IMG/VR virus record: IMGVR_UViG_3300025120_000589
Location: 1 to 23,136 of that record
Reading direction: 5' to 3' (one strand)
Length of the DNA: 23,136 bases
DNA from: a virus
The notes under the pieces are model-generated. The model was not told the origin of the DNA and ran no database searches. It saw nothing but the letters and a program-made list of their open reading frames with translations. Below, piece after piece: positions 3,538 to 21,457 of the stretch. Both the position numbers and the translations under genes were made by a program. Every line of letters begins with the position of its first letter. Within the stretch, counting starts at the first letter, position 1.

Positions 3538-3663
3538 GTGGCAGCAAAAAAAAAGGCTACTAAGACTCGTCTTGATAAGTCTTGTTGGAAAGGCTACAAA
3601 AAATCTGGTACCAAAGTAAAAGGGGGTACCCGAGTAAATAACTGTGTAAAAAAGAAAAAATGA
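3538..3663 (+). CDS. 41-residue Lys/Cys-rich small protein, GTG start
   Basis: A GTG at 3538 is preceded six bases upstream by AAAGGAG (3525-3531), one of the best Shine-Dalgarno matches in the window, and opens a 41-residue frame ending at TGA 3661-3663. The stop overlaps the next ATG as ATGA, supporting coupled translation. The protein starts M-A-A-K-K-K-A-T-K-T-R-L-D, then has a C16-W17-K-G-Y core, a G-T-K-x-K-G-G segment and V33-N-N-C36. The two Cys could bind metal or form a disulphide. I recall a similar Cys-Trp...Val-Asn-Asn-Cys pattern in small marine cyanophage proteins, without a known function. A second frame from ATG 3507 ends after 18 codons beyond an A9 tract; see findings. Confidence 0.72.
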   Translation: MAAKKKATKTRLDKSCWKGYKKSGTKVKGGTRVNNCVKKKK

Positions 3664-3956
3664 TTCCACTCCTATCCACTATCGTATTAACAGCTTCATG
3701 GTATGGCGATTATTTCCATGGTCGCACCGCTGCTAATGGCTCCGTGTACAACATGTATGCCAGTACTGCAGCTCACAAGTCCCTCCCCTTTGGCACCCGG
3801 CTACGGGTTTGTTATAAGACTTGCGAAGTGGTGATGATCACAGACAGAGGACCGTACATTCCTGGACGGCACCTTGACCTATCTAAAGGAACAGCTACAC
3901 GCATTGGCATGAAAGATGTTGGTGTAGCACCTGTTGAAGTTTATCGAATGAACTAG
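3660..3956 (+). CDS. RlpA-like double-psi beta-barrel protein
   Basis: Encodes 98 residues, little more than one RlpA/barwin-like barrel. Visible family elements in order are A-S-W-Y-G (12-16), F-H-G-R-T (19-23), T-A-A-H-K-S-L-P-F-G-T (36-46), I-T-D-R-G-P (60-65), G-R-H-L-D-L-S (69-75) and G-V-A-P-V-E-V (88-94). RlpA proteins of bacteria are lytic transglycosylases for peptidoglycan stripped of peptides. His39 and Asp62 sit at conserved positions, but the Glu usual after the Asn-Gly (T-A-N-G-E) is Ser28 here. Cys51 and Cys55 could pair. There is only a short hydrophobic start (residues 2-12) and no full signal peptide. It is translationally coupled to the upstream small protein. It could be a lysis enzyme, a virion wall enzyme or a non-catalytic glycan binder. 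Confidence 0.88.
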   Translation: MIPLLSTIVLTASWYGDYFHGRTAANGSVYNMYASTAAHKSLPFGTRLRVCYKTCEVVMITDRGPYIPGRHLDLSKGTATRIGMKDVGVAPVEVYRMN

Positions 3957-5763: not shown

Positions 5764-6291
5764 ATGACTAAAAAAATTCTGGATGTACCATATCAATCTC
5801 AATTAGATAATGTAAGTGGCACCGGATACAGAGAATGCTTCTCATCCTCTTGTGCAATGATTGCTATGTATCATGGCTACATTGAGGGGGATGATGCATA
5901 CAATGCAGTTAGACAGAAGTATGGAGACAGCACTGATGCTATGGCACAGGAGTCTGCATTACGTAGTCTTGGACTTGATCCAAGGTTCCGTACTAATTGT
6001 GAAAAGAAAACCCTGATTGGTGAGATTGATCAGGGGAGACCAGTTGCTGTTGGTTGGCTACATTATGGCCCTCCTTCTGCACCAACTGGTGGTGGTCATT
6101 GGTCCGTTGTTGTAGGTTATGATGACACTGGTTTTTACATGCATGACCCTAATGGTGATGCTAACCTTGGTTCAGGTGGTTACCTCCCATCATTAGATGG
6201 TGCATGTCTCCACTACTCATTTAAGAATTGGCTTCCAAGATGGGCAATCCCTAATCCATATAATGGATGGGCAATGATTGTTACTAAATAA
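5764..6291 (+). CDS. C39-like cysteine peptidase, probable endolysin
   Basis: Encodes 175 residues with the Peptidase_C39-like papain fold. It shows V-P-Y-Q-S-Q near the N-terminus (8-13, oxyanion Gln), a nucleophile region E-C25-F-S-S-S-C-A-M-I, then G-G-G-H112-W-S-V-V-V-G-Y-D-D and H-D128-P-N-G-D. A Cys25-His112-Asp128 triad fits the family. Such proteins could cut peptide cross-links of peptidoglycan. The position after a holin-like gene and an amphipathic gene supports an endolysin role, since no other lysozyme or T7-type amidase is present in the window. There is no signal peptide, so it would need a holin for release. Alternative: a virion-associated or processing protease. It starts two bases after the upstream stop without a Shine-Dalgarno sequence. 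Confidence 0.85.
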   Translation: MTKKILDVPYQSQLDNVSGTGYRECFSSSCAMIAMYHGYIEGDDAYNAVRQKYGDSTDAMAQESALRSLGLDPRFRTNCEKKTLIGEIDQGRPVAVGWLHYGPPSAPTGGGHWSVVVGYDDTGFYMHDPNGDANLGSGGYLPSLDGACLHYSFKNWLPRWAIPNPYNGWAMIVTK

Positions 6292-8154: not shown

Positions 8155-8796
8155 ATGACACAATCTGCTTTCAGTAAAACACACTTTGAATTACAGGCCA
8201 TTAATCAGATGCTAGAAAGCATTGGACAGGCTCCTGTTACAAACCTAAATCAATCCAACCCTGACGTTGCAATTGCTTACGACACACTGATGCAAGTGTC
8301 TAGGGATGTGCAGGCTGAAGGTTGGACCTTTAATAGAGAATATGATTACAGTATGGTTCGTCAATCCGATGGAACAATTACTGTACCTAGCACAGCATTG
8401 CAGGTATCATTGACAGATTCCAATGCATACAATAAAGATAAGAGAGCAGTTGTCAGAACTCAATCAACAGGCTCTACTACACGCAAATTATATGATATAA
8501 TCTCCCACTCATTTATATGGTCTCAAACTATTAAATGTGATGTGGTTTGGTTTGTAGAATTTGTAGCAATACCTATTCCTATTCAATCTTACATTGTTGC
8601 AAGAGCTGCTAAGTTTTTTTCTCAAAGAACTATTGGCGACGGTACTCAATACTCAGCACTTGCTGAACAGGAAGTTACCTGTAGGGCTTATGCACTAGAG
8701 TATGATACTCGTCAGATCGATAGGTACTTCTTTGGCTACAACAATAATGGGCAGTTCTATAACAGCTATCAACCTTTCAAAGCACTTACTCGATAA
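8155..8796 (+). CDS. Tail tubular protein A, T7 gp11-like
   Basis: Encodes 213 residues from the ATG at 8155 (T7 gp11 has 196). An in-frame TTG at 8140 would add five residues but lies close to the terminator and is less likely. Typical features are an N-terminal helix E-L-Q-A-I-N-Q-M-L-E-S-I-G-Q-A-P-V (about 13-29), then E-G-W-T-F-N near 57, a central beta region, and Y-I-V-A-R-A-A-K-F-F (about 148-157) with a helical C-terminus. Gp11 proteins form the dodecameric adaptor ring between portal and nozzle. TAATG overlap with the next gene links the two tail tube proteins in translation. Confidence 0.92.
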   Translation: MTQSAFSKTHFELQAINQMLESIGQAPVTNLNQSNPDVAIAYDTLMQVSRDVQAEGWTFNREYDYSMVRQSDGTITVPSTALQVSLTDSNAYNKDKRAVVRTQSTGSTTRKLYDIISHSFIWSQTIKCDVVWFVEFVAIPIPIQSYIVARAAKFFSQRTIGDGTQYSALAEQEVTCRAYALEYDTRQIDRYFFGYNNNGQFYNSYQPFKALTR

Positions 8797-11048
8797 TGCC
8801 TGCTATTACACAAGAAATCTCTCCTTATATATTTGGAGTCTCTCAAGAACCTGATGTAGTTAAGAAACCTGGATTCCTAAAGGAATGTCAGAATGGATAC
8901 CCTGATATTGTATTTGGTCTACAGAAACGTCCAGGTAGTAAATATCTAAATACATTGCTAGATCTAAGTGACAATCCAGTCAACTTGGTTGATGTGAAGG
9001 ATGCATTTTGGTTCTCTATTTCTAGAGAAGAGGATTCATTATACTTTGGTTGTATCATTCCAGCTACTTATTCTGGGTCAACATTGTCTACGTATGGTCA
9101 AATCAGACTGTGGAATGTTAGTACAAACCTGGAGTGCAACATAGTCTATTCGGATGATACTGATCCGTCTTCGTCCAAGGATGGCAGCGGAGCAGGTACA
9201 ACAAGAGCTTATCTAACTGGTAGTTCTAGGAACGATTATAAGACGATTACTGTTGAGAAGGGAACAACTCTTTTAAATAGAAAGATGGTTGTTAGTCCTA
9301 GCACTATTCTTACTTCTGGATCTTTAACTGGCAGTGTATCTACCTTTGCATCTTTACCTGTAAGTCCTGCTGTAAGCAGTATTTATAAAATCATTAATAC
9401 TGAGAATACTCAGAATGACGATTACTATGTAACCTGGAATGGTTCCTCTTGGTCTGAAACAATTCTCCCTGGAATTTCTAATGGATTTAATAATTGGACT
9501 GCACCACATAACTTACTGAAAACTATTGATAATCCAACAGGTAGAGATACATTTACTTTAGGGGAAGAGCTTTATAGTGATAGAACTGTTGGTGACGATG
9601 CTACTAATTTCCATCCTAGTTTCGTGGGAAGCACCATTCAGGATACCTTTTTTTATTTTAATAGGTTAGGTTTTCTATCTCAAGATAACGTTGTTATGTC
9701 TCAACCGCTAAAGGCTGACAACGTATCTGCTACACCACAGGTTCATGACTTCTACAATAAGTCAGCACAAATCAGTATTGCTTCAGACCCTGTTGATTTA
9801 AATGCTAGTAGTGTTAGATCCATACGTCTTTCTAACGTCCTTCCTGCAGCACAGGGGCTCATATTATTTGCTAATAATGAGCAGTTTATGATGGTTGCAG
9901 ACTCTGGTGTTATCACTCCACAAACTGCTATTATCAAATCAATCTCTAATTATCAAGTTGATGATAACTTAAGGCCTGTTGAGTTAGGTGGTGAATTTTA
10001 TTATATATCTAAAACACTTCGTTACTCTCATGCTTTCAGGCTTTTAACTAGAGGTATGGATAACGACCCTGTTACTACTGAGGTAAGTAAGATTGCTTCT
10101 GAGTATATCCCGTCATCCATTAATCAATTCACTTCCAATCCACAGAATCAATTCATAGCCATGTCTGATTCAACTCAGTCTTATGTATGGTTTTATAAGC
10201 AATTTATGGATGGTGGTCAACGGCAACAAGCGTCGTGGTTTAAATGGCAATTACCTGGTAACTCACTTGCCTCTAGATTTACAAATGATACTATGTTTGG
10301 TCTAGCTGGAACTGTAGATAATAAGGTTATTGCTTTTGAAATACCACTAAATAAGAGTCCCGATGACAGTCTCTTAACCTCTGCTCCTAATATAGCTTTG
10401 GGGCCGTACCTTGATTTATGGACAAGTAATACTGGTACACCTACGTATGATTCTAGTACTGATTTAACTACAATTCCTGTACCTGCTAATTACCCAATAC
10501 TTGATACTTCATCTGGAGCTAAACCCTGTCTGATCTTCTCTACTACCGCAGTTGCTGCTGGTTCAGCCGGTGCTCCTATCAGTAATCAACAGTGTGGAGC
10601 CTTTTTTGATGCAACTATTCAAGGTAATAATTTTCAGATCATTGGTAATTTTGTACCTGATGCTTCTAACTACGTAATCGGATATAAGTATGACATGATA
10701 TTAGACCTACCTACTACATTTTTTAGGTCTGGAGAATCTGCTGATTACACAGCGTCTTTACGCATTAGTCGTTACAAGTTCTCTTTTACTAATTCTGGTC
10801 TTGTTGATTTTCAAATTAAAAATTATACCGATAACGATGAATTTACTACAGCCTATAGCGTAGCAAATACAGAGTTTTATAAGGCAGATACGTTACCAAT
10901 TTACAAACAATTAGTATTTACTATTCCTATTCATCAACGGAATGAATACTTTAATTTTAGAATCTTTAGCGATTCACCATATCCTTCAACATTGAACAAG
11001 TTAATGTGGGAGGGAGTGTATACCCCACGTTATTATCAAAGGAGTTAA
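8796..11048 (+). CDS. Tail tubular protein B (nozzle), T7 gp12-like
   Basis: Encodes 750 residues (T7 gp12 has 794). The N-terminus, with S-P-Y-I-F-G-V-S-Q-E-P-D (8-19) and then C-Q-N-G-Y-P-D-I-V-F-G-L-Q-K-R-P-G-S, matches the family's pattern of a 'stretch of polypeptide to known genome register' start seen in nozzle proteins. The centre is rich in beta-forming Ser/Thr/Asn residues, and F-Y-F-N-R-L-G-F-L-S and S-F-I-R-like beta-propeller strands occur in the middle. Six copies form the tail nozzle in T7. It shares one base with tube A and ends three bases before the gp14-like gene, with AAAGGAG (11039-11045) overlapping its stop region serving the next start. Confidence 0.9.
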   Translation: MPAITQEISPYIFGVSQEPDVVKKPGFLKECQNGYPDIVFGLQKRPGSKYLNTLLDLSDNPVNLVDVKDAFWFSISREEDSLYFGCIIPATYSGSTLSTYGQIRLWNVSTNLECNIVYSDDTDPSSSKDGSGAGTTRAYLTGSSRNDYKTITVEKGTTLLNRKMVVSPSTILTSGSLTGSVSTFASLPVSPAVSSIYKIINTENTQNDDYYVTWNGSSWSETILPGISNGFNNWTAPHNLLKTIDNPTGRDTFTLGEELYSDRTVGDDATNFHPSFVGSTIQDTFFYFNRLGFLSQDNVVMSQPLKADNVSATPQVHDFYNKSAQISIASDPVDLNASSVRSIRLSNVLPAAQGLILFANNEQFMMVADSGVITPQTAIIKSISNYQVDDNLRPVELGGEFYYISKTLRYSHAFRLLTRGMDNDPVTTEVSKIASEYIPSSINQFTSNPQNQFIAMSDSTQSYVWFYKQFMDGGQRQQASWFKWQLPGNSLASRFTNDTMFGLAGTVDNKVIAFEIPLNKSPDDSLLTSAPNIALGPYLDLWTSNTGTPTYDSSTDLTTIPVPANYPILDTSSGAKPCLIFSTTAVAAGSAGAPISNQQCGAFFDATIQGNNFQIIGNFVPDASNYVIGYKYDMILDLPTTFFRSGESADYTASLRISRYKFSFTNSGLVDFQIKNYTDNDEFTTAYSVANTEFYKADTLPIYKQLVFTIPIHQRNEYFNFRIFSDSPYPSTLNKLMWEGVYTPRYYQRS

Positions 11049-11051
11049 ATT

Positions 11052-14012
11052 ATGCCAGCCGCATGGATAGGTCTTGGTGTTAGTGTATTGGGTTTGGGCG
11101 CGAGTGTTGCTGGTGCTAGTAGTGCTGATTCTGCAAACAAAGAGGCGATCAAAAAACAGTTTCAGCAGGACAAAAAGAATTGGAAGTTTGAGAACAATCA
11201 GAGGGCTGATGTTTACGAATATGAAAAACAAACTGTTGAAACTAATAGACAGAATAACGAAAATGAGATTACATTTCGGGAAGCTGTTGATCAACAGGGT
11301 TATGATCGTGCATTGGAAGAGCGGAAGCGTGTTTTCGATGCTGAAAAGGAAGCTTATCAGGCATCTGAGGAAGATTATAAAAATCAAACTAAACTCAACG
11401 AAAAGTTTGCCAAGCTTGCCGTAACAGAAACAGAAAATAAACGTGACGAACAATATGCAGAACAAGACTTCGCTAATCTTCGTAATAAGTTAAGCTATCT
11501 TAAAGATCAAGATGCAGTAAATTTTGCGCTCAAGGGTAATAAAAATAATTTAAAAGATGCTACCGCTGCACAAACAATTTCTGACAAACGAAATGAAAAT
11601 GCTTTAGAACAAGCTAAATTGGCAGCAAATTTATCTATTGATGAAGCTAAAGCTAATAAAGGATTTGTTAAAGATAAGAAAACACTCGCTGATGAGGCTT
11701 TTGTTAATCAACAAGCTTCTCTTGAGACTAATACGCTTGGTAATAAACAAGCTTTGCAAAATCAAATTGACAATGCAAATCTTGCTTCTACTCAAAATAT
11801 AGCTGGCATTAATTCTAACTTTGCTAATCAGAAGCTACAAAATGCTCAGCAAACAGATTCCATTGCTGCAAAGCGTGATCGTGAGATCATGTCTATCAAT
11901 CAAAACATAGCCAGTATTACTGATAGTTTTGGAGATCAATCATTAGCCAGTGAGCAGAATAAGGCTGAAATTACAGATGCCTATGGCGATAAACAATTAG
12001 CTAATCAACAGAATCAAGAAAATATCTCTGCGCAATTTGGACGCCAATCCATGGAGAGTGATATTAATCGTTCAAATATTGGTGCTCAATTTGGTGATCA
12101 ATCATTAGCTAGTGAGCAGAATCGTGCAAATATCATGGATTCGTTTGGTGATGCTGCTCTTGCCACCGCACAGCAACAAGCTGATTTACAAGGTAATTTT
12201 GGATCTCAAAAACTAGCTAATAAGCAAGCCAGGGAAAATATTAAAGATCAGTTTGGTGATTCTAGTTTAGCTACACAGCAATTGCAACAAAATCTAGATC
12301 GTGATTTACAATCTGCACAATTAAAAACTCAACAAACCATAGGGTCTATTGAGGATACTTTAGGAGACCAAAGACTTGCTAAAGATCAAGCTATTGTTGA
12401 TCTTGATGATCAAACTAAATACCAGCTATTTGAAGGTAATAATCGTATTTCTGACCTTAAAGGTGAATTGGTTACTAGTGCATTGCAATATCAGCAGCAA
12501 CGCGCTACACAAATGTTTCAGCAGCAGGCTAACAATCTTGAGGCTCTACAGTCACAAGGAATCGCTTCTGCATCTGGTCGTCGAGGAAGGTCTGCTGCAC
12601 GTCTTGTAGCTTCTTCTATGGCTTCTGCAGGTCGTGCGAATGCACAGCTTACTGACAGTATTCTCCGTGGTGATATCCAGCAAGGCGATCTTGTTACTAA
12701 TATTAGGCGACGTATCAAAGAAGCTGGTAGTTTAAAATCTATGCAGCAGATATCGAATGAACGCCGTAAACGTGACCAACAGGATACCTTCAAGAGAAGT
12801 GTTACTGATCGCGCTAGAGGGCTTACTCAGGCCGAACAAGATTTAGCATTTTCTAAAGGCTCTAGTGACTTATTAAAGAATCAATCTAAAGAATCTTTAT
12901 CTAGAGAGGCGATTGACCGCGACAGGCGTTTAGCGCAGAATTTGGAAACAGAACGGGACCAAGAGAGTACAACAGCTAGAAGGAAAAATCAACTTGATCA
13001 AACTTTAAGTCGTAACTTATCAGATAGGGATCGTGCTCTACTTCAAGATTCACAAAACCTAGAACGTAGAAAAGGTGATAAGGATCGGGCTTTAAATCAG
13101 GATTCTCTTCGATTAGATCAAGATAGAGCAGATAGAGATCGTGCTATGAACCAAGGGAATCAAACTCTTGAACGTGATTTAGCAGATATGAATCGGGGCG
13201 TGGACAATCAAACAGACAATCTTAAACGTAGTCAAATTGATCGTGATCGCGATATTAAGCAGCAAAATGCTATTAAAGAACTTTCAGAGATTGATGCTGC
13301 ACGTCAAACGCAGGATATTGTTGAAACCGAAAGTCTTCAGAATTTAGATAAAGGTAGGCTTGTTGAAAATCAGCGCGCCAACAATGAGCTTGTCAAAAAG
13401 CAAACTGAGGATAAAATAACGCTTGAAGATCAAGTCTTTAAAAATAGTCTTGCATCAATGACGACTGAAAAGAAACAGCTTATGGCATCATTAGATGCAA
13501 GCTTATCTCAATATGGTTTTGATATTCAACGTTCTAAAAATGCTAAGCTTGCTGCTAAGGATGATTATAAAGTTAATAAATTAGGTGCTGAGGAAGCATT
13601 TAAATCTGCTTCTAGAGATTATGATCTTACTGAAGCACAACAAAACAAAGAACTCAAACGTGCTGATGCACAACGTGAGATTGAAAAAGACGAGTACAAG
13701 CAATCTATCAAATCCATTGATAAAGCATTTGATGCTAACGTCAAAGGTGTTGCATTGGATCAATATAGTGCAGACCTTACGGCTGATAAAGATCGTTTGG
13801 TTAAACCTGTTAAAGGTCCTAAACCAGCTAAACCCCTTAAATATCCTAAGACTATTTACCAGGATCCAAGGGAGCCTATGGAAACTCCTAAACCTATCAA
13901 AGGTGTAGCTAAAGGTGGAGCAGTGTTATCTGCTGTTGGACAGGGGCTAGGTAATATAGCTTCATTAACTCTGTCAAATGCTGGGGCTATTAATAAGGCT
14001 CTAGGTGGCTAA
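11052..14012 (+). CDS. Expanded internal (ejection) protein, gp14-like, with 18-residue repeats
   Basis: Encodes 986 residues, against 196 in T7 gp14. AAAGGAG upstream fixes the start. Residues 1-24 are hydrophobic Gly/Ala/Val-rich. Residues about 470-585 carry a conserved core typical of podovirus gp14-type proteins (Q-G-I-A-S-A-S-G-R-R-G-R-S-A-A-R-L near 502-518). A Pro/Lys-rich linker (about 915-955) and a Gly/Ala hydrophobic end follow. On either side of the core lie two arrays of 18-residue repeats: residues 239-454 (F-G-D-Q-S-L-A-x-x-Q-N type) and 586-747 (D-R-D-R-A-L-x-Q-D type). Long helices are predicted, as 18 residues make five turns. In T7, gp14 enters the outer membrane to start the DNA channel; the repeats could lengthen that structure. 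Confidence 0.82.
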   Translation: MPAAWIGLGVSVLGLGASVAGASSADSANKEAIKKQFQQDKKNWKFENNQRADVYEYEKQTVETNRQNNENEITFREAVDQQGYDRALEERKRVFDAEKEAYQASEEDYKNQTKLNEKFAKLAVTETENKRDEQYAEQDFANLRNKLSYLKDQDAVNFALKGNKNNLKDATAAQTISDKRNENALEQAKLAANLSIDEAKANKGFVKDKKTLADEAFVNQQASLETNTLGNKQALQNQIDNANLASTQNIAGINSNFANQKLQNAQQTDSIAAKRDREIMSINQNIASITDSFGDQSLASEQNKAEITDAYGDKQLANQQNQENISAQFGRQSMESDINRSNIGAQFGDQSLASEQNRANIMDSFGDAALATAQQQADLQGNFGSQKLANKQARENIKDQFGDSSLATQQLQQNLDRDLQSAQLKTQQTIGSIEDTLGDQRLAKDQAIVDLDDQTKYQLFEGNNRISDLKGELVTSALQYQQQRATQMFQQQANNLEALQSQGIASASGRRGRSAARLVASSMASAGRANAQLTDSILRGDIQQGDLVTNIRRRIKEAGSLKSMQQISNERRKRDQQDTFKRSVTDRARGLTQAEQDLAFSKGSSDLLKNQSKESLSREAIDRDRRLAQNLETERDQESTTARRKNQLDQTLSRNLSDRDRALLQDSQNLERRKGDKDRALNQDSLRLDQDRADRDRAMNQGNQTLERDLADMNRGVDNQTDNLKRSQIDRDRDIKQQNAIKELSEIDAARQTQDIVETESLQNLDKGRLVENQRANNELVKKQTEDKITLEDQVFKNSLASMTTEKKQLMASLDASLSQYGFDIQRSKNAKLAAKDDYKVNKLGAEEAFKSASRDYDLTEAQQNKELKRADAQREIEKDEYKQSIKSIDKAFDANVKGVALDQYSADLTADKDRLVKPVKGPKPAKPLKYPKTIYQDPREPMETPKPIKGVAKGGAVLSAVGQGLGNIASLTLSNAGAINKALGG
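11766..12413 (+). repeat. Array 1: twelve 18-codon repeats in the gp14-like gene
   Basis: Period of 54 bases. The clearest seven units run 11928-12305, each beginning Phe/Tyr-Gly and containing L-A-x-x-Q-x-x-x-x-I. Three more degenerate units precede and two follow in register. DNA identity between units is low except for units 1 and 4 of the clear set, which share Q-F/S-F-G-D-Q-S-L-A-S-E-Q-N. Confidence 0.85.
12807..13292 (+). repeat. Array 2: nine 18-codon repeats in the gp14-like gene
   Basis: Period of 54 bases in register from 12807. Units start Asp-Arg-Asp-Arg in the best copies (12915, 13023, 13131, 13239), with consensus D-R-D-R-A-L-x-Q-D-x-Q-x-L-E-R-x-x-x. Highly charged and probably helical. 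It shares period but not sequence with array 1. Confidence 0.82.
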
Positions 14013-14042: not shown

Positions 14043-17000
14043 ATGGCATACAGGTCTTATGGGAGCTACGGCTCCTTTTCTACTTCACCGAATCCAGGAC
14101 GTTCAAGACGGATCCTGCAAGCTAACGCACAAGAGTCTCGCAACTTTCAAGAAAGAGAGCGCATGATTCAGGAGCAGCAACGCTCCTACATGGATGTCAT
14201 GCGTCAAAAATTAAGAGACGAGCAACAAAATAGGGACAAAAATTTTCAGTTAGAACAATCCTTTAGGCGTGATTATCAGGATTCTGTTAATCGTAATGAG
14301 GATCAGCGTATTGCTAACACCATACAACAAGGAGCAAACTCTGAAAGTTTTTGGAAATCTATTGGTGAGTTTTCTGTTAAAGCTGGTGAAGTTTATACAG
14401 AGAATTGGATTAACAAAGAAAATGAGAAAAATATACAACAGTTCTATGATGCAACTAATGAGTTAAACCAACTTAAAGCTACTAATATAGAGCAGTATAA
14501 TCGTACAATTGGTTTAAAAGTAGCAGAGGAAAATCAAAGTCTACTTGATTATGCAACTGCAAATTCCTCTGCGAATGAAATTGCCGAGACAGCCGGTGAG
14601 CTTCAAGCTGATCCTGTACGTCAAATGGGTGCAGGTTATAAACCTCTTATATGGCAGAAAGCTAAAGCTGCACATGTTGCAAACTATATGCCTCAGTATA
14701 TAAAAGAGAATTTAGATTCTAGAATTAAAGTTACTGATCAAGATGGTGAAGAGTTAGAATTTACTGTTCAGGATGCCTTAAATAGAGGTGGTCTGTTGGC
14801 TTATCAAGCTACTGAGCAACTCAAAATGCGAGTAGCTAATTCTGTTGAATTCGATAAACTTGATCCAGTTTGGACTAAAAAAAATTTTACTGATCCTGCA
14901 GACCGGGCTATTGGTAGATTTTTAGCTGCGAATGAAATTAACGTAGAAGAGCAAAAAGTTAAACAGCAGGAAGCATCTGAAAATAGAGTTCTTACTTCTG
15001 AAATTTATGTTGGATTTACTCAGAATGATAATCCTGACTCTACTATGTCGATGGAACGTTCTATCAATCGCATTGCGGTCGAGTCTGGCGGTAAATTCTT
15101 AAAACCTGATGGTAGTATTGATAAGGCATTTATTAGAGATAGTGTTTACCTGCCTCAAGTACAGGATCTTGTAGAGACTGGTCAATTTGATAATGATCTG
15201 CCAGCCATTAAACAGTGGATTAATAACCAACAATTTATGTTTAATGGTGATCAAGTAGGTACATTAGAGGATGTCAAGTCTAGTGAAGCACTCTTTGAAT
15301 TAAACAAGGTTATTTCTGAGCGTGAAGACAGGATTGAAACTAGTGTTGATACTCGTAACGCGGCCATTGTTGATGAAGAAGTTGATACTATTGTCTCTAC
15401 TGCTTTAGAAAATGATCAACGTATTGATAGTGTTGAGGCTGTAAAAATCCGAAGAGGACTTCTTAAGTATAGAGCTACTGATCCTGCTTTATATCAGCGT
15501 GCAGTAGATAGATTTGAAGCGTATGGTCCTGGTAACGCTGACAAGATTGACAAAACGAAAGCCTATGTCGATCTTGAGGCACAAGCTAATCAAGGTACAT
15601 TGACGGAGCTTGATCTTCAACAGAATATGAACTGGTTAAATAAAAATCAGATCTCAAGCCTTAATGAAAGAATCCAACAATTTGGACCTACTACTAATCC
15701 TGAACGTGAAGGTTATAAACGAAAAGATGTAGAAACAGAAATTAAAGCTTTATTCCGTTCAAAGCTAGGCGAAATGGATCTTGGAACTGGTGTTGATGCT
15801 AGCGTTGGCTGGGCTACAGCAACTGCTGGTGATTACTATGTCAATAGATTAAAAGAACTTTCAGAAGATCCTAAGCTTACTCCTGATCAGGTAGCTATTG
15901 AAGCAAAGAAGGATACAATTACTTATGTAGCTAATGGTATGGATGATGAAAAGAATCCATTCTATGTTGTACCTGCAAATAAAGCTGATAAAACACAAGG
16001 CTATGTAAAGAACTTTCGAGTTGGTAACTTTACACCTGAACAACGTTCTGATGTATCTAAACAATATCAAGACATTACTGCTTCACCTAGCCTACTAGCA
16101 GAGAAGGTATATCTATCAACAGGTTACCTGGCTGATTTAGAAGGTGATGTAAAGAATGGCCGTTCTGTTGTATATACACCATGGGTTAATGAAGTAGCAC
16201 GCCTTACTAAAAAGAAGCCTTATGAAGTATTGAATGAGCAGTTAAAAGCTGCAGGTATTAAACAAGAAATTAAACCAGGATCATATGATGTACTGTCTGA
16301 ACAGATTGTAGATAACCCTGCACTTGAAAGTATGCTTAAGCAACCTACTCGTGCTGGTATTGCTACATCAATCATTAGCTCTGGTAATGCCGTCAACAAG
16401 GTCCGTACGGGCTTCCAAGGTGAACAGGATGTGATGTCCTTAGCTACTGCAGCAGGCTTCAAATCACCTCCTCTAGCGGCTGCTATGTGGGCATTAGAGA
16501 CTGGTCGTGGTAAGACTGTACATGGACCTAATGCTCTATTTAATATTAAGAGTAAGGATGGTCAGGGTACACGAGCTACAACTAAAGAATTCATTGATGG
16601 TCAGCCTATATCTCAACCCTCTACTTTTAAGAACTATGCATCACCTCTTGAGTCAGTAAAAGACCTGAATGCATGGGCATCTAAAGCGCCTGGGTTTAAA
16701 GAAGCTAAGACATATCGCCAAGCTGTTGAAGCTATATACAATGCAGGATATGCTACTGACCCTAATTATGTAACAAAGACATTAGGTGTATTGGAAGGTA
16801 TGGGCTTTAAACCAGACCAACCTATTATTGAATATAAAGGTTCACCAGCTACTGATCCTAATTATATGTCACCTACAATGAAACAGGTGTTCTATAAGAC
16901 TGGAAATATTATGGCACCTGGTATGGATCCATCTGAACATTTAGATGTAAAACAAGCAGATAATCCTAATACTGCTGCTGATGAGACAAACGCTTACTTT

Positions 17001-17309
17001 GATGAGGATGCACTAGAGAACTATGTTTCTGTAAGTGATCCTGAATTTGGAGAAGTTGGTATGTCAGAACTAGCAGAGAAGTATTACGGTAAGGGTAATA
17101 GACCCGCTAATACATCCTTCTATGCCGCTAGGAAGTACCGTAATGGTATACACCTAGGATGGGACTATCCAACAGCTAGTGGCAGCTTGCTGAAGCTTAA
17201 AGGAGGCGCTCGTGTAGTTGGTGGTTATAACACTTCATTCGGCTATAAAGCAATAATTCAACTACCTGATGGTAGACGTTTCTCATTCCTACATGGATCT
17301 AAAGCATGA
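14043..17309 (+). CDS. Internal core protein, gp15-like, with glucosaminidase and M23-like domains
   Basis: Encodes 1088 residues (T7 gp15 has 747). The N-terminal 800 residues are helical and Gln/Glu-rich, as in ejection proteins that form the periplasmic tunnel. Residues about 795-930 match the FlgJ/glucosaminidase fold: A-A-A-M-W-A-L-E819-T-G-R-G-K, N-A-L-F-N-I-K, then T-F-K-N-Y-A-S-P-L-E-S-V-K-D-L and Y-A-T-D-P-N-Y. Glu819 is the expected catalytic acid. The last 55 residues resemble the first half of an M23 peptidase (H1037-L-G-W-D1041, G-G-A-R-V-V-G-G-Y, F-L-H1084-G-S) but stop before the family's H-x-H motif. The ATGA overlap shows the stop is genuine. The gene starts 31 bases after its neighbour, without a Shine-Dalgarno site. 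Confidence 0.87.
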   Translation: MAYRSYGSYGSFSTSPNPGRSRRILQANAQESRNFQERERMIQEQQRSYMDVMRQKLRDEQQNRDKNFQLEQSFRRDYQDSVNRNEDQRIANTIQQGANSESFWKSIGEFSVKAGEVYTENWINKENEKNIQQFYDATNELNQLKATNIEQYNRTIGLKVAEENQSLLDYATANSSANEIAETAGELQADPVRQMGAGYKPLIWQKAKAAHVANYMPQYIKENLDSRIKVTDQDGEELEFTVQDALNRGGLLAYQATEQLKMRVANSVEFDKLDPVWTKKNFTDPADRAIGRFLAANEINVEEQKVKQQEASENRVLTSEIYVGFTQNDNPDSTMSMERSINRIAVESGGKFLKPDGSIDKAFIRDSVYLPQVQDLVETGQFDNDLPAIKQWINNQQFMFNGDQVGTLEDVKSSEALFELNKVISEREDRIETSVDTRNAAIVDEEVDTIVSTALENDQRIDSVEAVKIRRGLLKYRATDPALYQRAVDRFEAYGPGNADKIDKTKAYVDLEAQANQGTLTELDLQQNMNWLNKNQISSLNERIQQFGPTTNPEREGYKRKDVETEIKALFRSKLGEMDLGTGVDASVGWATATAGDYYVNRLKELSEDPKLTPDQVAIEAKKDTITYVANGMDDEKNPFYVVPANKADKTQGYVKNFRVGNFTPEQRSDVSKQYQDITASPSLLAEKVYLSTGYLADLEGDVKNGRSVVYTPWVNEVARLTKKKPYEVLNEQLKAAGIKQEIKPGSYDVLSEQIVDNPALESMLKQPTRAGIATSIISSGNAVNKVRTGFQGEQDVMSLATAAGFKSPPLAAAMWALETGRGKTVHGPNALFNIKSKDGQGTRATTKEFIDGQPISQPSTFKNYASPLESVKDLNAWASKAPGFKEAKTYRQAVEAIYNAGYATDPNYVTKTLGVLEGMGFKPDQPIIEYKGSPATDPNYMSPTMKQVFYKTGNIMAPGMDPSEHLDVKQADNPNTAADETNAYFDEDALENYVSVSDPEFGEVGMSELAEKYYGKGNRPANTSFYAARKYRNGIHLGWDYPTASGSLLKLKGGARVVGGYNTSFGYKAIIQLPDGRRFSFLHGSKA

Positions 17310-20300
17310 CATACTCTCCTTTCGAGCCTTCTACTTACGATGATGAAGAGCAACTGAAGAGATACTACGAAAACCCTGATGATGGATCTTATAAAGGTCC
17401 TAATGTTGAAGAAGGTAGACCAGGACCTGATGGTAAGGTAGCTCCTACGGAAGCTCCTCCAAAACCTGAAGCTGAAGAACCAAACATTCTAGAAAAAGCT
17501 GGACAGTTTATCGAAGATAATAAAAAGACAATTGGTAGAGCTGGTAGTGCTGTAGCTCAGACTATTCCCATTGTTGGTCGTCCAATTGCTGCCGGTATTG
17601 AAGCAGCTACTGCTGATACTGACGCAGAGGCTGAGGCAGCCATTCTAGGTAAGGTCGGTATGGAACTTGGCCTTGTTGATTTTGGAATGGATGCTATTGG
17701 CAATATCCCTGGTGCTGCATCTATTGATGACTCCTGGGATGAAATGACAAGGTTTAAAAACCCTGCAACTGCTGCTGCACGAGATATGGCTTCTGTCATT
17801 GTCCCTAGTGTTGCAGCTTCTCTAGTAGCAGGACCTGCCGCTAGTAGAGCTGTATCAGCTATTAATGGTGGTAAAGTAGCAGCAGGTATTGCAGCAGTTG
17901 GTGCTAGTGCTGTAGCTGATACTAGTATCGCTTATCTTTCTGATTACTCAGAACGTGATGAAGGTTTAGCTCGTAGTACTGATGAATTCTTAGAATCTAT
18001 TGGTAGACCAATGGGTTTAAAGGTTCCGCAAGCTATTCAGGTAATGGATGATGATTCACCTGAAGTACGACGTAATAAACTTATGCTGGAAGCAGGTGGC
18101 CTATCCGTAATTGGTGATGCCATTGGTTACCTGTTTAAAGCAGGTAAGCCAATCATGAATTGGTTTGAACCAAAAGATGATGCAGCTAAAGCATTCAAAG
18201 AGATTAAAGTTAGAGAGAATCCTGATCCTGATACTGTCTTTCGTTCTATGGAATTAGACGAAGAGATTGCTCAGATTGCAGATGAACTAGCAATTACTAC
18301 TGATCCATCTGATATTGCATTACTGCAAACTAAACAGGATGCATTAATTGAAGAGAATGCTGCTTTATTTCAATCTTACTTTAATACTGGCCGTACATCT
18401 GCAACTGTTGACCCATTAGCTTCTGCTATTGAAGAAGGTCAAGCATCTCGTGGATGGCAGACCGATGAAATTGGAGCTAAAAAATTACAGCAAGATCCTG
18501 AAAGGGTTACCTTCGATGCTGATATCCAATCACCATTAGCACCTGAATCTGCACGTCCTACACAAGCTATTCCTAGGGCAAATGTAGCTCGTAATGCGGC
18601 TGATATTGCTGCTACTAGGTCTGGTACATCAACAGGAATACCTGCGCCTCTCATCTCTAAACCTATGTTGAAGGATGGTATGGAATTGGATGAACCATCT
18701 AGAGCGATTGTTTCTAGGCTTGTTGAGGATCTCAATGAAGGTGGTAATTTTGCCGCCAATGTTGACGGCTTCCGTTTTGTTAAAAAACAAATGCATGATG
18801 ATGCACTTGATCTCTTTACTGAGATTGTTAGTGCAAAGGATGTTGATGAATTACGTGCCGTTCTTTTGCCTAAGAAATATACGCGTATGGTTACTGAAGA
18901 ATTTGGTGTCAATATGCTTGTTGACTCTAGAATGCCCGACGTAGGTAAGGCAATTAAATATCTATCTAAGGAATTCCTTGGTGAAGATGTGTCTGCTATG
19001 TCAGCTAGAGTGATAGAAACTACTGCTAAAGAAGTTGAAGCACATCTAGATGCTATGCGTATCTTTAAAGGTCAAGCCAATGAAGATGCTATAAAAGATA
19101 TTATTACTGATAAATTAGCATTACTTACTGAAGAATATGGAATTGCTAAATACACTTCAGGTTGGTCACTGGAGAATGTGGCCTGGTGGAAATCTAAAGA
19201 TCCTACTGCAATTGCTGAACATTTCACTGGTGTAGCTAAACGTAATCACGAGGATGCTCAACAGTTTGCAGTCGATTTGAGGAAATTTAAGGAAGATAAT
19301 CCCGAAATGGCGGCTAACCTATACATGGCATATGATATGTCTAATGGTAATGTTAATACCATCGCTAAGTTAAATGCTTGGGCTAAAACTCAGATCAATC
19401 CTATGACTGCTGTTGTAGGCAGTAAGTTTGGCTCCACATCGTTTAATGAAAACCTCCAAGGTGTTATCTATAACAACGTATTATCTGGCCTATCAGCAGG
19501 TCGTGCAATGATTGGTGGTGTGTCGTCCCTGGCATTGAAGCCTATTGATTATATGGTTGGTGCTGGTGTACGTGGTGTCATGAAGAAAGACTTTAGTGAT
19601 CTACGTAAGGGCATGTATGCCTTTGGTGTTGAATTTGATGTCATGGGTCGTGCTTTAAATGATGGTTGGCAGACTTTTAAGAAGTCAGCTACTGATCCTG
19701 AATCAATGATGCAGATGTTGAGAAAGGATTACAGCTTCCAATCATCTAAGAACACTGAGGAAATCCTTGACCGTATGGCTCTTGAGTATGAGCGTAATGG
19801 TGATTTTGGTAATCTAATGTTATCACGTTGGAATAAAGCCAATCGTTATCTCAGCATGAATAAATTCATGAGATATGGTACTAACGCTATGCTTGGTATT
19901 GACCGTGCTACTAATATCATGATGGCTACTATGGTATCTAAATTTAATGCGTGGGATGAAGCGTATACTGCTGGTCAGAAGATGGATCCTGAGAAACTTT
20001 TAGCTGCACAAGAGAAACACTATTCTAAAGTGTTTGATCCTAAAACTGATCTTATAAAGGATAGCTGGACTAAGCAGCAGGCTGCTGATATTGCATTAAA
20101 TGAAACTACAGGTATTGGTGACTTCCTATCTAAAGCTACAACTAAGCTTCCTGCTTTAAAAGCATTCATGATGTTTCCTAATACAGGTATTAACCAAGCC
20201 CGTAAAGCCCTTACATATACACCATTCGCTGCTATTCCTAATTCTAGCCGTAATGCTAAAGCACTAATGGCTACTTCTCCAGAACAGATTGATGAAGTAA

Positions 20301-21457
20301 TGGTCTTACATGGTATTTCACCTAATGATCCTGATAAGCTACGTATTCTAGACAACATGAAGACTGAATATACAGGTCGTTTAGTTGTTGGTTCTATGAC
20401 TGCTCTTGGTGCAGCTCAATATGCTCTATCTGGTAATATTCGTGGTAACTATCCTAAGGATAAAGCACGTAAAAATTATCTCATTAGTAATAATTGGAAA
20501 CCAAAGACTATTAAATTAGGTGGTATCTGGGTATCCTACGCTGGTGTTCAGATGTTAGACCCTATCCTTGCAATGGTAGGTGATATGGCTGAGTATTCAT
20601 CAGATATGTCATCTCCTTTTAAAGAAGATATAATTGGAAAGCTTGGTTGGACCTTATCTCAAAGCTTTGGTAGTGCTTCTCCTTTGACTGGTCTAGAACC
20701 TTTGATTGCTCTTACACAGGGTGATGAAGGTGCTATGCAACGTCTTCTAAATAACTACTCTCGTATGGCAATACCTCTCTCTAGTGCTCAAGCTGTGCTT
20801 GCTAAGGGTATTGATAGCAGCTTAAAAGAAACATATGATGATCTTCAAGGCTATATCTCTAGTCGTATTCCTATTGTTAATACAACAGTACCTAAGAAGT
20901 TTGATTGGTGGACAGGGCAACCTATCCAAGAGATAGATAATCCTATGCTTCGTATGTTAAATGCTATTAACCCTATTCCTATGTCTCAATCTGAAGAACC
21001 ATGGCGTATCTGGGTAAATCAATCTGGTATCGATCTATCTCAAATGATGCTTACTGACAGTACCGGTACACATAAGTATAGTAGTGCAGAGCGATCACAG
21101 CTTTCTAAGCTTATTGGTCAAATGCAGATCTATAAAGAAGTAGAAAAAATGATGAAGAATGATAAATTTAATGACCAATTAAATATTGTACGTGCTGAAT
21201 TATCCACTGGTAAGACATTTGACGAGTTGCAGCCTGAAACAAAGAAGCTGCCTGTTGTTGACCGTCTCACAACCTTAGTCAAAGATGCTAAAGCTGTAGC
21301 TGAACAACAGCTATTGCAACGATACCCCAACATTCAAGTGAAGATTCTTGGTAAACAAATGGTCGATAAGAAAATGCAAGCAGGCGACCCTAGTGGTGCA
21401 TATAAGCAAGCAGAAAAAACACAACAACAATTGAAACAACTGGAACAATTTAGATGA
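17306..21457 (+). CDS. Internal core protein, gp16-like
   Basis: Encodes 1383 residues (T7 gp16 has 1318), coupled to the upstream gene by ATGA and to the fibre gene by ATGA. In T7 this protein forms the inner part of the ejectosome and crosses the inner membrane. The first 60 residues here are an acidic, proline-rich leader. I see no E-S-x-x-x-x-x-A-x-S transglycosylase signature, which T7 gp16 carries at its N-terminus. Ala/Gly/Val-rich hydrophobic stretches lie near residues 85-120, 160-215 and 1025-1042 and could insert in a membrane. The C-terminal 60 residues are a Gln/Lys-rich helix. Assignment rests on size, order and composition. Confidence 0.87.
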   Translation: MTYSPFEPSTYDDEEQLKRYYENPDDGSYKGPNVEEGRPGPDGKVAPTEAPPKPEAEEPNILEKAGQFIEDNKKTIGRAGSAVAQTIPIVGRPIAAGIEAATADTDAEAEAAILGKVGMELGLVDFGMDAIGNIPGAASIDDSWDEMTRFKNPATAAARDMASVIVPSVAASLVAGPAASRAVSAINGGKVAAGIAAVGASAVADTSIAYLSDYSERDEGLARSTDEFLESIGRPMGLKVPQAIQVMDDDSPEVRRNKLMLEAGGLSVIGDAIGYLFKAGKPIMNWFEPKDDAAKAFKEIKVRENPDPDTVFRSMELDEEIAQIADELAITTDPSDIALLQTKQDALIEENAALFQSYFNTGRTSATVDPLASAIEEGQASRGWQTDEIGAKKLQQDPERVTFDADIQSPLAPESARPTQAIPRANVARNAADIAATRSGTSTGIPAPLISKPMLKDGMELDEPSRAIVSRLVEDLNEGGNFAANVDGFRFVKKQMHDDALDLFTEIVSAKDVDELRAVLLPKKYTRMVTEEFGVNMLVDSRMPDVGKAIKYLSKEFLGEDVSAMSARVIETTAKEVEAHLDAMRIFKGQANEDAIKDIITDKLALLTEEYGIAKYTSGWSLENVAWWKSKDPTAIAEHFTGVAKRNHEDAQQFAVDLRKFKEDNPEMAANLYMAYDMSNGNVNTIAKLNAWAKTQINPMTAVVGSKFGSTSFNENLQGVIYNNVLSGLSAGRAMIGGVSSLALKPIDYMVGAGVRGVMKKDFSDLRKGMYAFGVEFDVMGRALNDGWQTFKKSATDPESMMQMLRKDYSFQSSKNTEEILDRMALEYERNGDFGNLMLSRWNKANRYLSMNKFMRYGTNAMLGIDRATNIMMATMVSKFNAWDEAYTAGQKMDPEKLLAAQEKHYSKVFDPKTDLIKDSWTKQQAADIALNETTGIGDFLSKATTKLPALKAFMMFPNTGINQARKALTYTPFAAIPNSSRNAKALMATSPEQIDEVMVLHGISPNDPDKLRILDNMKTEYTGRLVVGSMTALGAAQYALSGNIRGNYPKDKARKNYLISNNWKPKTIKLGGIWVSYAGVQMLDPILAMVGDMAEYSSDMSSPFKEDIIGKLGWTLSQSFGSASPLTGLEPLIALTQGDEGAMQRLLNNYSRMAIPLSSAQAVLAKGIDSSLKETYDDLQGYISSRIPIVNTTVPKKFDWWTGQPIQEIDNPMLRMLNAINPIPMSQSEEPWRIWVNQSGIDLSQMMLTDSTGTHKYSSAERSQLSKLIGQMQIYKEVEKMMKNDKFNDQLNIVRAELSTGKTFDELQPETKKLPVVDRLTTLVKDAKAVAEQQLLQRYPNIQVKILGKQMVDKKMQAGDPSGAYKQAEKTQQQLKQLEQFR

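Follow-up and report, generated by a model that had tools for sequence, protein, structure and literature searches.

The window, by which we mean the whole 23.1-kb stretch of DNA analyzed here, is a piece of a T7-like marine cyanopodovirus. It carries, in this order, genes for the portal, a capsid assembly protein, psbA, the major capsid protein, the adaptor, the nozzle, an open reading frame (ORF) of 986 aa, a gp15-like protein, a gp16-like protein and a tail fibre. The T7 gp12-like tail nozzle (8796..11048, + strand; Pfam Phage_nozzle PF25675, E=2e-125) lies directly 5' of the 986-aa ORF (11052..14012, +), which is followed by the gp15-like internal virion protein (14043..17309, +), recognized from gene order and from a glucosaminidase domain (PF01832, residues 809-918, E=6e-13), and by the gp16-like internal virion protein (17306..21457, +; phrog_6651, E=3e-183). 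The order from the nozzle to the gp16-like gene is kept in relatives. The glucosaminidase domain lies on the gp15-like protein, unlike the arrangement in T7, where gp16 bears the peptidoglycan-cutting domain. We also noticed a 98-aa ORF beside psbA (3660-3956) with a DPBB/RlpA-type lytic transglycosylase domain (PF03330, E=1e-23), at a position equivalent to that of a 'rare lipoprotein A' gene in DSL-LC07, and a 175-aa ORF (5764-6291) that is an endolysin according to PHROGs and belongs with the C39-like cysteine peptidases according to Pfam (PF13529, E=2.5e-12). A 32-kb IMG/VR contig, 3300025137_000159 (L002 / L003 / L179), represents the same virus and extends beyond the window; it was 100% identical in the genes searched, namely the gp14-like, gp16-like and nozzle genes.

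The 986-aa ORF occupies the position of gp14 in T7, which likewise comes after the nozzle and before gp15 and gp16. It had been read as a gp14-like ejection protein about five times the length of its T7 counterpart, and the lengths (986 aa versus 196 aa for T7 gp14 in L178) bear this out. Its N-terminus (residues 10-156) matches phrog_20153 (E=5e-19), a family to which no function is assigned there. Direct protein searches were unproductive: tblastn against the phage collection gave zero matches, a scan of IMG/VR with the 986-aa protein alone returned the identical contig only, and a sequence search of the PDB gave a meaningless match to Factor V, caused by repeat composition, along with weak matches to DedD (E 0.11) and an N4 gp52-like protein (E 0.23). 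Relatives therefore had to be reached through their gene neighbourhoods: loci in IMG/VR and in cultured phages were identified by their nozzle, capsid and gp16-like genes, and the ORF lying 3' of the nozzle gene was extracted. The family alignment grown in this way increased from 79 to 104 and finally to 149 distinct complete ORFs, which span ~200 to 986 aa, the 18-residue period described below being present in the longer members. Divergence across the family was too great for a scan with degenerate peptides.

The alignment consists of three conserved blocks separated by two variable arms. In the window protein, a glycine-rich hydrophobic segment that may enter a membrane (residues 1-23, 11052..11120, +) is read from the sequence; AlphaFold gives it low confidence and does not predict a helix. 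It is followed by the conserved N base block with the near-invariant N116 (residues 24-142, 11121..11477, +), for which pLDDT is mostly >85. Next comes an insert of 349 residues, the N arm, which is missing from short relatives (residues 143-491, 11478..12524, +), and then the block that would form the tip of a hairpin (residues 492-538, 12525..12665, +), with the motif GxxxxxGxxGRSAAR........GR and a glycine, G512 (12585-12587), that is invariant in 50 of 50 sequences. The C-arm insert (residues 539-887, 12666..13712, +) is also 349 residues long. The protein returns to a second conserved base block, on the C side, which contains D908 and A911 (residues 888-918, 13713..13805, +), and ends in a proline-rich linker (conserved P919, P928, P932, P939 and P948) and a hydrophobic C-terminus (residues 919-986, 13806..14009, +). 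The sequence thus shows hydrophobic glycine-rich ends.

The sequence-only reading had described 18-residue repeats before and after a conserved core, in strict register. Lag-18 BLOSUM autocorrelation confirmed this periodicity against residue shuffles, with z=12.7 for residues 201-470 and z=6.9 for residues 561-760, as compared with z=0.9 for the core. The best three lags in the protein are 18, 36 and 54, and the lags expected as helix harmonics (7, 11, 25 and 29) score low, which indicates that the period exceeds generic helix periodicity. Twelve units of the FGDQSLAxxQN type lie within the N arm (residues 239-454, 11766..12413, +), as had been counted; the C arm holds eleven frames of the DRDRALxQD type instead of nine (residues 581-778, 12792..13385, +), the middle ones being clearest, and the expanded regions are wider than either array. 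Mean pairwise identity is 31% among the N units and 25% among the C units (9% in shuffles), and the units of both arrays are free of indels. The two arrays are indeed built from distinct unit types, but they are not wholly different, since cross-identity between N and C units peaks at one register (15% versus a mean of 8%); this faint common pattern hints that the two either descend from one ancestor or present the same helix face. Tandem Repeats Finder detected no 54-bp array in the DNA, and the frequency with which identical residues share a codon is hardly above that expected from codon usage (0.54 observed versus 0.46 expected, and 0.43 versus 0.44), so that the duplicated copies are old. 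The N units show two hydrophobic seams on roughly opposite sides and a nearly invariant glutamine column, as would be expected if each helix contacts neighbours on both sides. We dropped the idea that the 18-residue unit forms a beta-solenoid, because the arms have no prolines and few glycines and are predicted to be helical nearly throughout.

We then measured arm lengths as the numbers of residues between N116, G512 and D908 (window numbering). Across the 149 ORFs the N-arm insert equals the C-arm insert in every length class, with a largest difference of 3 residues. The classes (N/C) are 0/0, 29/29, 36/36, 40/40, 54/54, 72/72, 90/90, 97/97, 106/106, 126/126, 138/138, 209/210, 227/227, 263/263 and 349/349; one clade of the 72/72 class reads 72/75, and some +54, +90 and +126 members have one residue fewer on the N side because their tip loop is shorter by one. 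G512 of the window protein is exactly central, 396 residues from both N116 and D908. When the C values were permuted across 15 nonzero classes, the summed difference, observed as 5.5, never fell below 312.5 in 200,000 permutations. Comparison among related phages, which had been proposed as a check, thus revealed a ladder of arm lengths in which both arms lengthen in lock-step. Five classes are multiples of 18 (36, 54, 72, 90 and 126) and nine are not (29, 40, 97, 106, 138, 210, 227, 263 and 349), and two of the steps inside the window's clade are of ~18 and ~36 residues. A tree of the conserved blocks shows ~15 changes of length class; nearly all nonzero classes either make up one clade or are represented by one sequence, and the window falls together with the 210, 227 and 263 forms (support 0.99). 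In the literature searched, which comprised open-licence papers only, we found no description of such paired lengthening.

Pairs of close relatives show where the arms have grown. Compared with L181, to which it is 65% identical, L180 has paired 36-residue insertions located 63 residues before and 63 residues after the tip. L181 in turn has insertions of 18 and 17 residues relative to L098, near -66 and +65 from the tip. An ungapped sliding test located each mirrored insertion to within a few residues. An antiparallel hairpin requires its insertions to lie at matching distances from the tip in both arms, and we know of no other reading that predicts this placement. Taken together, the equal arms and the mirrored insertions identify the arrays as paired arms of a single antiparallel helical hairpin, running from the base through the N arm to the tip at G512 and back through the C arm to the base, an architecture that these alignments make almost certain. 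The arms would change only together because a one-sided insertion would break their pairing. The earlier description of two arrays flanking a core holds in its layout; the arrays are not separate devices, however, and the core is the tip of the hairpin.

Structure prediction agrees with this arrangement in outline. AlphaFold models the window protein as nearly all helix with a turn at residues 508-512, which accords with the proposal that the 18-residue units, each equal to five helical turns, form long helices flanking the conserved core. The confidence of this model is high at the base (pLDDT >90) and low in the FGD array (pLDDT 33-55), and pTM is 0.30. In the model of L020, a shorter relative (581 aa, +126), helices of 80 residues flank the tip turn and the breaks in them are mirrored. 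VIA-align superimposed this model on two chains of ejected-state T7, 8e4g_a (127/127 residues, rmsd 2.6 A, Z 10.9) and 9jz0_0 (119/119 residues, rmsd 2.6 A, Z 10.3), which we took to be gp14 because the residues they span (19-145 and 25-143, respectively) agree with the range given for gp14 in PMC11784390. Given that unrelated helical hairpins, such as those of SMC proteins, the dynein stalk and chemoreceptors, also score Z near 10, the overlay is support and not proof. Viral Foldseek matches of the window model include homologues from S-B28 and S-CBP4 and several proteins that bear the name internal virion protein B; generic long coiled coils dominate these results, so we drew no proof from which families they did or did not contain.

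Gene position, the hairpin and the T7 overlay all support the gp14-like identity, and a gp14-type role for the 986-aa protein is very likely. Ejected T7 gp14 is a pair of antiparallel helices connected through a short loop, and six such molecules make up a channel inside the opened nozzle, their turns towards the nozzle and their distal ends at the LPS (PMC11784390); sequence and prediction point to the same two helices and short turn here. The hydrophobic termini of T7 gp14 have been shown experimentally to insert into the outer membrane (PMC8954989), and P2_38 of Peru-2, whose termini are believed to insert into the membrane, resembles T7 gp14 (PMC13320782). The proteins differ greatly in size: T7 gp14 has arms of ~60 residues (resolved 25-143), whereas the window protein has arms of ~396 residues and 18-residue repeats. 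Compared by hhalign, T7 gp14 alone and the short family gave a probability of 0.7%, a direct profile comparison that detected no sequence similarity to T7 gp14, and the P-SSP7 and P60/Syn5 gp14 groups were linked at 97%. The gp14-like proteins of cyanopodoviruses (S-CBP1, 314 aa; S-CBP3, 292 aa; S-CBP4, 413 aa; S-B28, 372 aa; and those of P60, Syn5 (gp43) and P-SSP7; phrog_20153) have the base and tip blocks in common with the window protein, but the cultured isolates examined have arm inserts of 0 to 40 residues each, as compared with 349.

Based on T7, we propose the following mechanism. After adsorption, about six hairpins would exit the head and refold to line a channel, with the tip end docking into the opened nozzle and the base, with its hydrophobic termini, reaching the membrane. 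Every residue added to both arms would extend the conduit by ~1.5 A, so that the 349 residues added to each arm would make it ~52 nm longer than in short-arm relatives; the 396 residues from N116 to G512 would correspond to ~59 nm. The 18-residue steps would keep the helix faces aligned, and the polar faces rich in N, Q and R would suit a DNA path; these three residues make up 28% of the arms as compared with 13-18% of neighbouring virion proteins. By analogy with T7, we think it reasonably likely that longer arms give a longer conduit, and the earlier suggestion of a tunnel wall fits the ejected-state structure of T7 gp14 (PMC11784390). For the data as a whole, the best explanation is likely to be that this T7-like cyanopodovirus has a gp14-type ejection protein with a lengthened, channel-lining hairpin, each arm of which carries 349 extra residues made up in large part of 18-residue units. 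A straight hairpin of ~60 nm would not fit the head of this class of phage, and the protein must therefore fold differently in the virion. In the mature head T7 gp14 does have another fold, of five short helices (PMC11784390).

We also considered the possibility that the paired arms act inside the virion, where the hairpins would form or wrap the internal core and the packaged DNA on the portal, and their length would matter for packaging or pressure. T7 gp14 of the mature head lies between the portal and the gp15 ring with helices reaching the DNA side (PMC11784390), and the C arm of the window protein is rich in R and D. However, the five short helices of the mature T7 fold are at odds with the straight paired hairpin that the equal-arm rule indicates, and the major capsid proteins of +0 and +349 phages are ~80% identical, so that head size hardly explains a range of 349 residues. 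We consider this explanation unlikely. Quite unlikely, too, is neutral growth, in which the arms lengthened by tandem duplication, folding alone enforced their equality, and total length had little function. The repeat-like units speak for it, as does the N insert of L180, which resembles its downstream neighbour (score 44, versus <=24 for any non-adjacent window), but free drift should not leave length fixed within clades, as it is in 33 of 33 sequences at 72/72 and 28 of 28 at 125/126 despite wide divergence.

The sequence-only reading had suggested that the arms let the phage span a thicker cyanobacterial envelope; this idea was not supported. The longest-arm clade does bear psbA and so infects cyanobacteria; however, phages isolated on a single host strain, Synechococcus CB0101, include both +0 (S-CBP1 and S-CBP3) and +36 (S-CBP4) forms, and cyanophages with psbA are found in the +0, +36, +54, +126, +210, +227 and +349 classes, which makes an adaptation of this kind improbable. 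Host-specific outer layers, such as a sheath, an S-layer or glycan, are possible determinants of length. Finally, although the arms resemble low-complexity sequence in which alignments place gaps freely, the notion that equal arm lengths are an alignment artefact has a negligible chance of being correct and is already refuted as far as sequence allows, because the counts use only the distances between N116, G512 and D908, which are visible by eye in each sequence, separate alignments at default settings choose identical anchors, and the ungapped sliding tests locate the mirrored indels.

Overall, the protein is a probable gp14-type ejection hairpin with an extreme and strictly paired extension of its arms. 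gp14 has been described as the most size-conserved ejection protein, with 181-240 aa across podophages (PMC8954989); in the present family gp14-like proteins run from ~200 to 986 aa under one rule, by which the arms change jointly, often by five helical turns. Having been obtained from sequence alone, the equal-arm rule independently supports the hairpin of ejected T7 and Peru-2, extends this architecture to a large and mostly uncultured family, and suggests a role for the unnamed family phrog_20153. The size series (+0, +36, +40, +54, +72, +90, +126 ... +349), which includes cultured phages of one host with different arms, offers natural material with which to study what determines how long a phage entry channel is. 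We would even speculate, with some doubt, that after adsorption a single ejected hairpin protein builds an alpha-helical tube of ~50-60 nm, longer than the phage's own tail, and that the length of this tube is written in the genome as equal arm extensions, often in five-turn units. If this speculation is true, then the family is a natural ladder of rulers.

Two other systems resemble the family in part. The cytoplasmic hairpins of chemoreceptors, which are also among the fold matches, vary their arms in pairs as well, from 12 to 32 paired heptads (PMC6628036); they are unrelated signalling proteins with a 7-residue step, whereas the step here is often 18, and the likeness is one of principle only. 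Membership of the window protein among such signalling hairpins was rejected, as the Pfam match is absent and the resemblance is confined to a hairpin with paired length changes. The pilot protein H tube of phiX174 is another phage-made alpha-helical DNA conduit, lined with N, Q and R and built from heptads and hendecads (7+11=18) (PMC7354561). It differs in consisting of ten single parallel helices over 170 A in a ssDNA phage, and we do not claim homology.

Arm length showed a weak correlation with gp15 length (rho 0.24), none with gp16 and a negative one with the nozzle (rho -0.47), all of them confounded by kinship; the nozzle is shorter in the long-arm clade (729-750 aa) than in +0 phages (median 856), which may reflect kinship only. 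The fold matches also include the BFVD entries A0A6S4PGZ5, A5HL22 and A0A7G3WH47, which are a 641-aa protein from phage MedDCM-OCT-S39-C11 together with proteins from Phormidium phage Pf-WMP3 and Arthronema virus TR020. These may be additional long-arm members, in phages of filamentous cyanobacteria.
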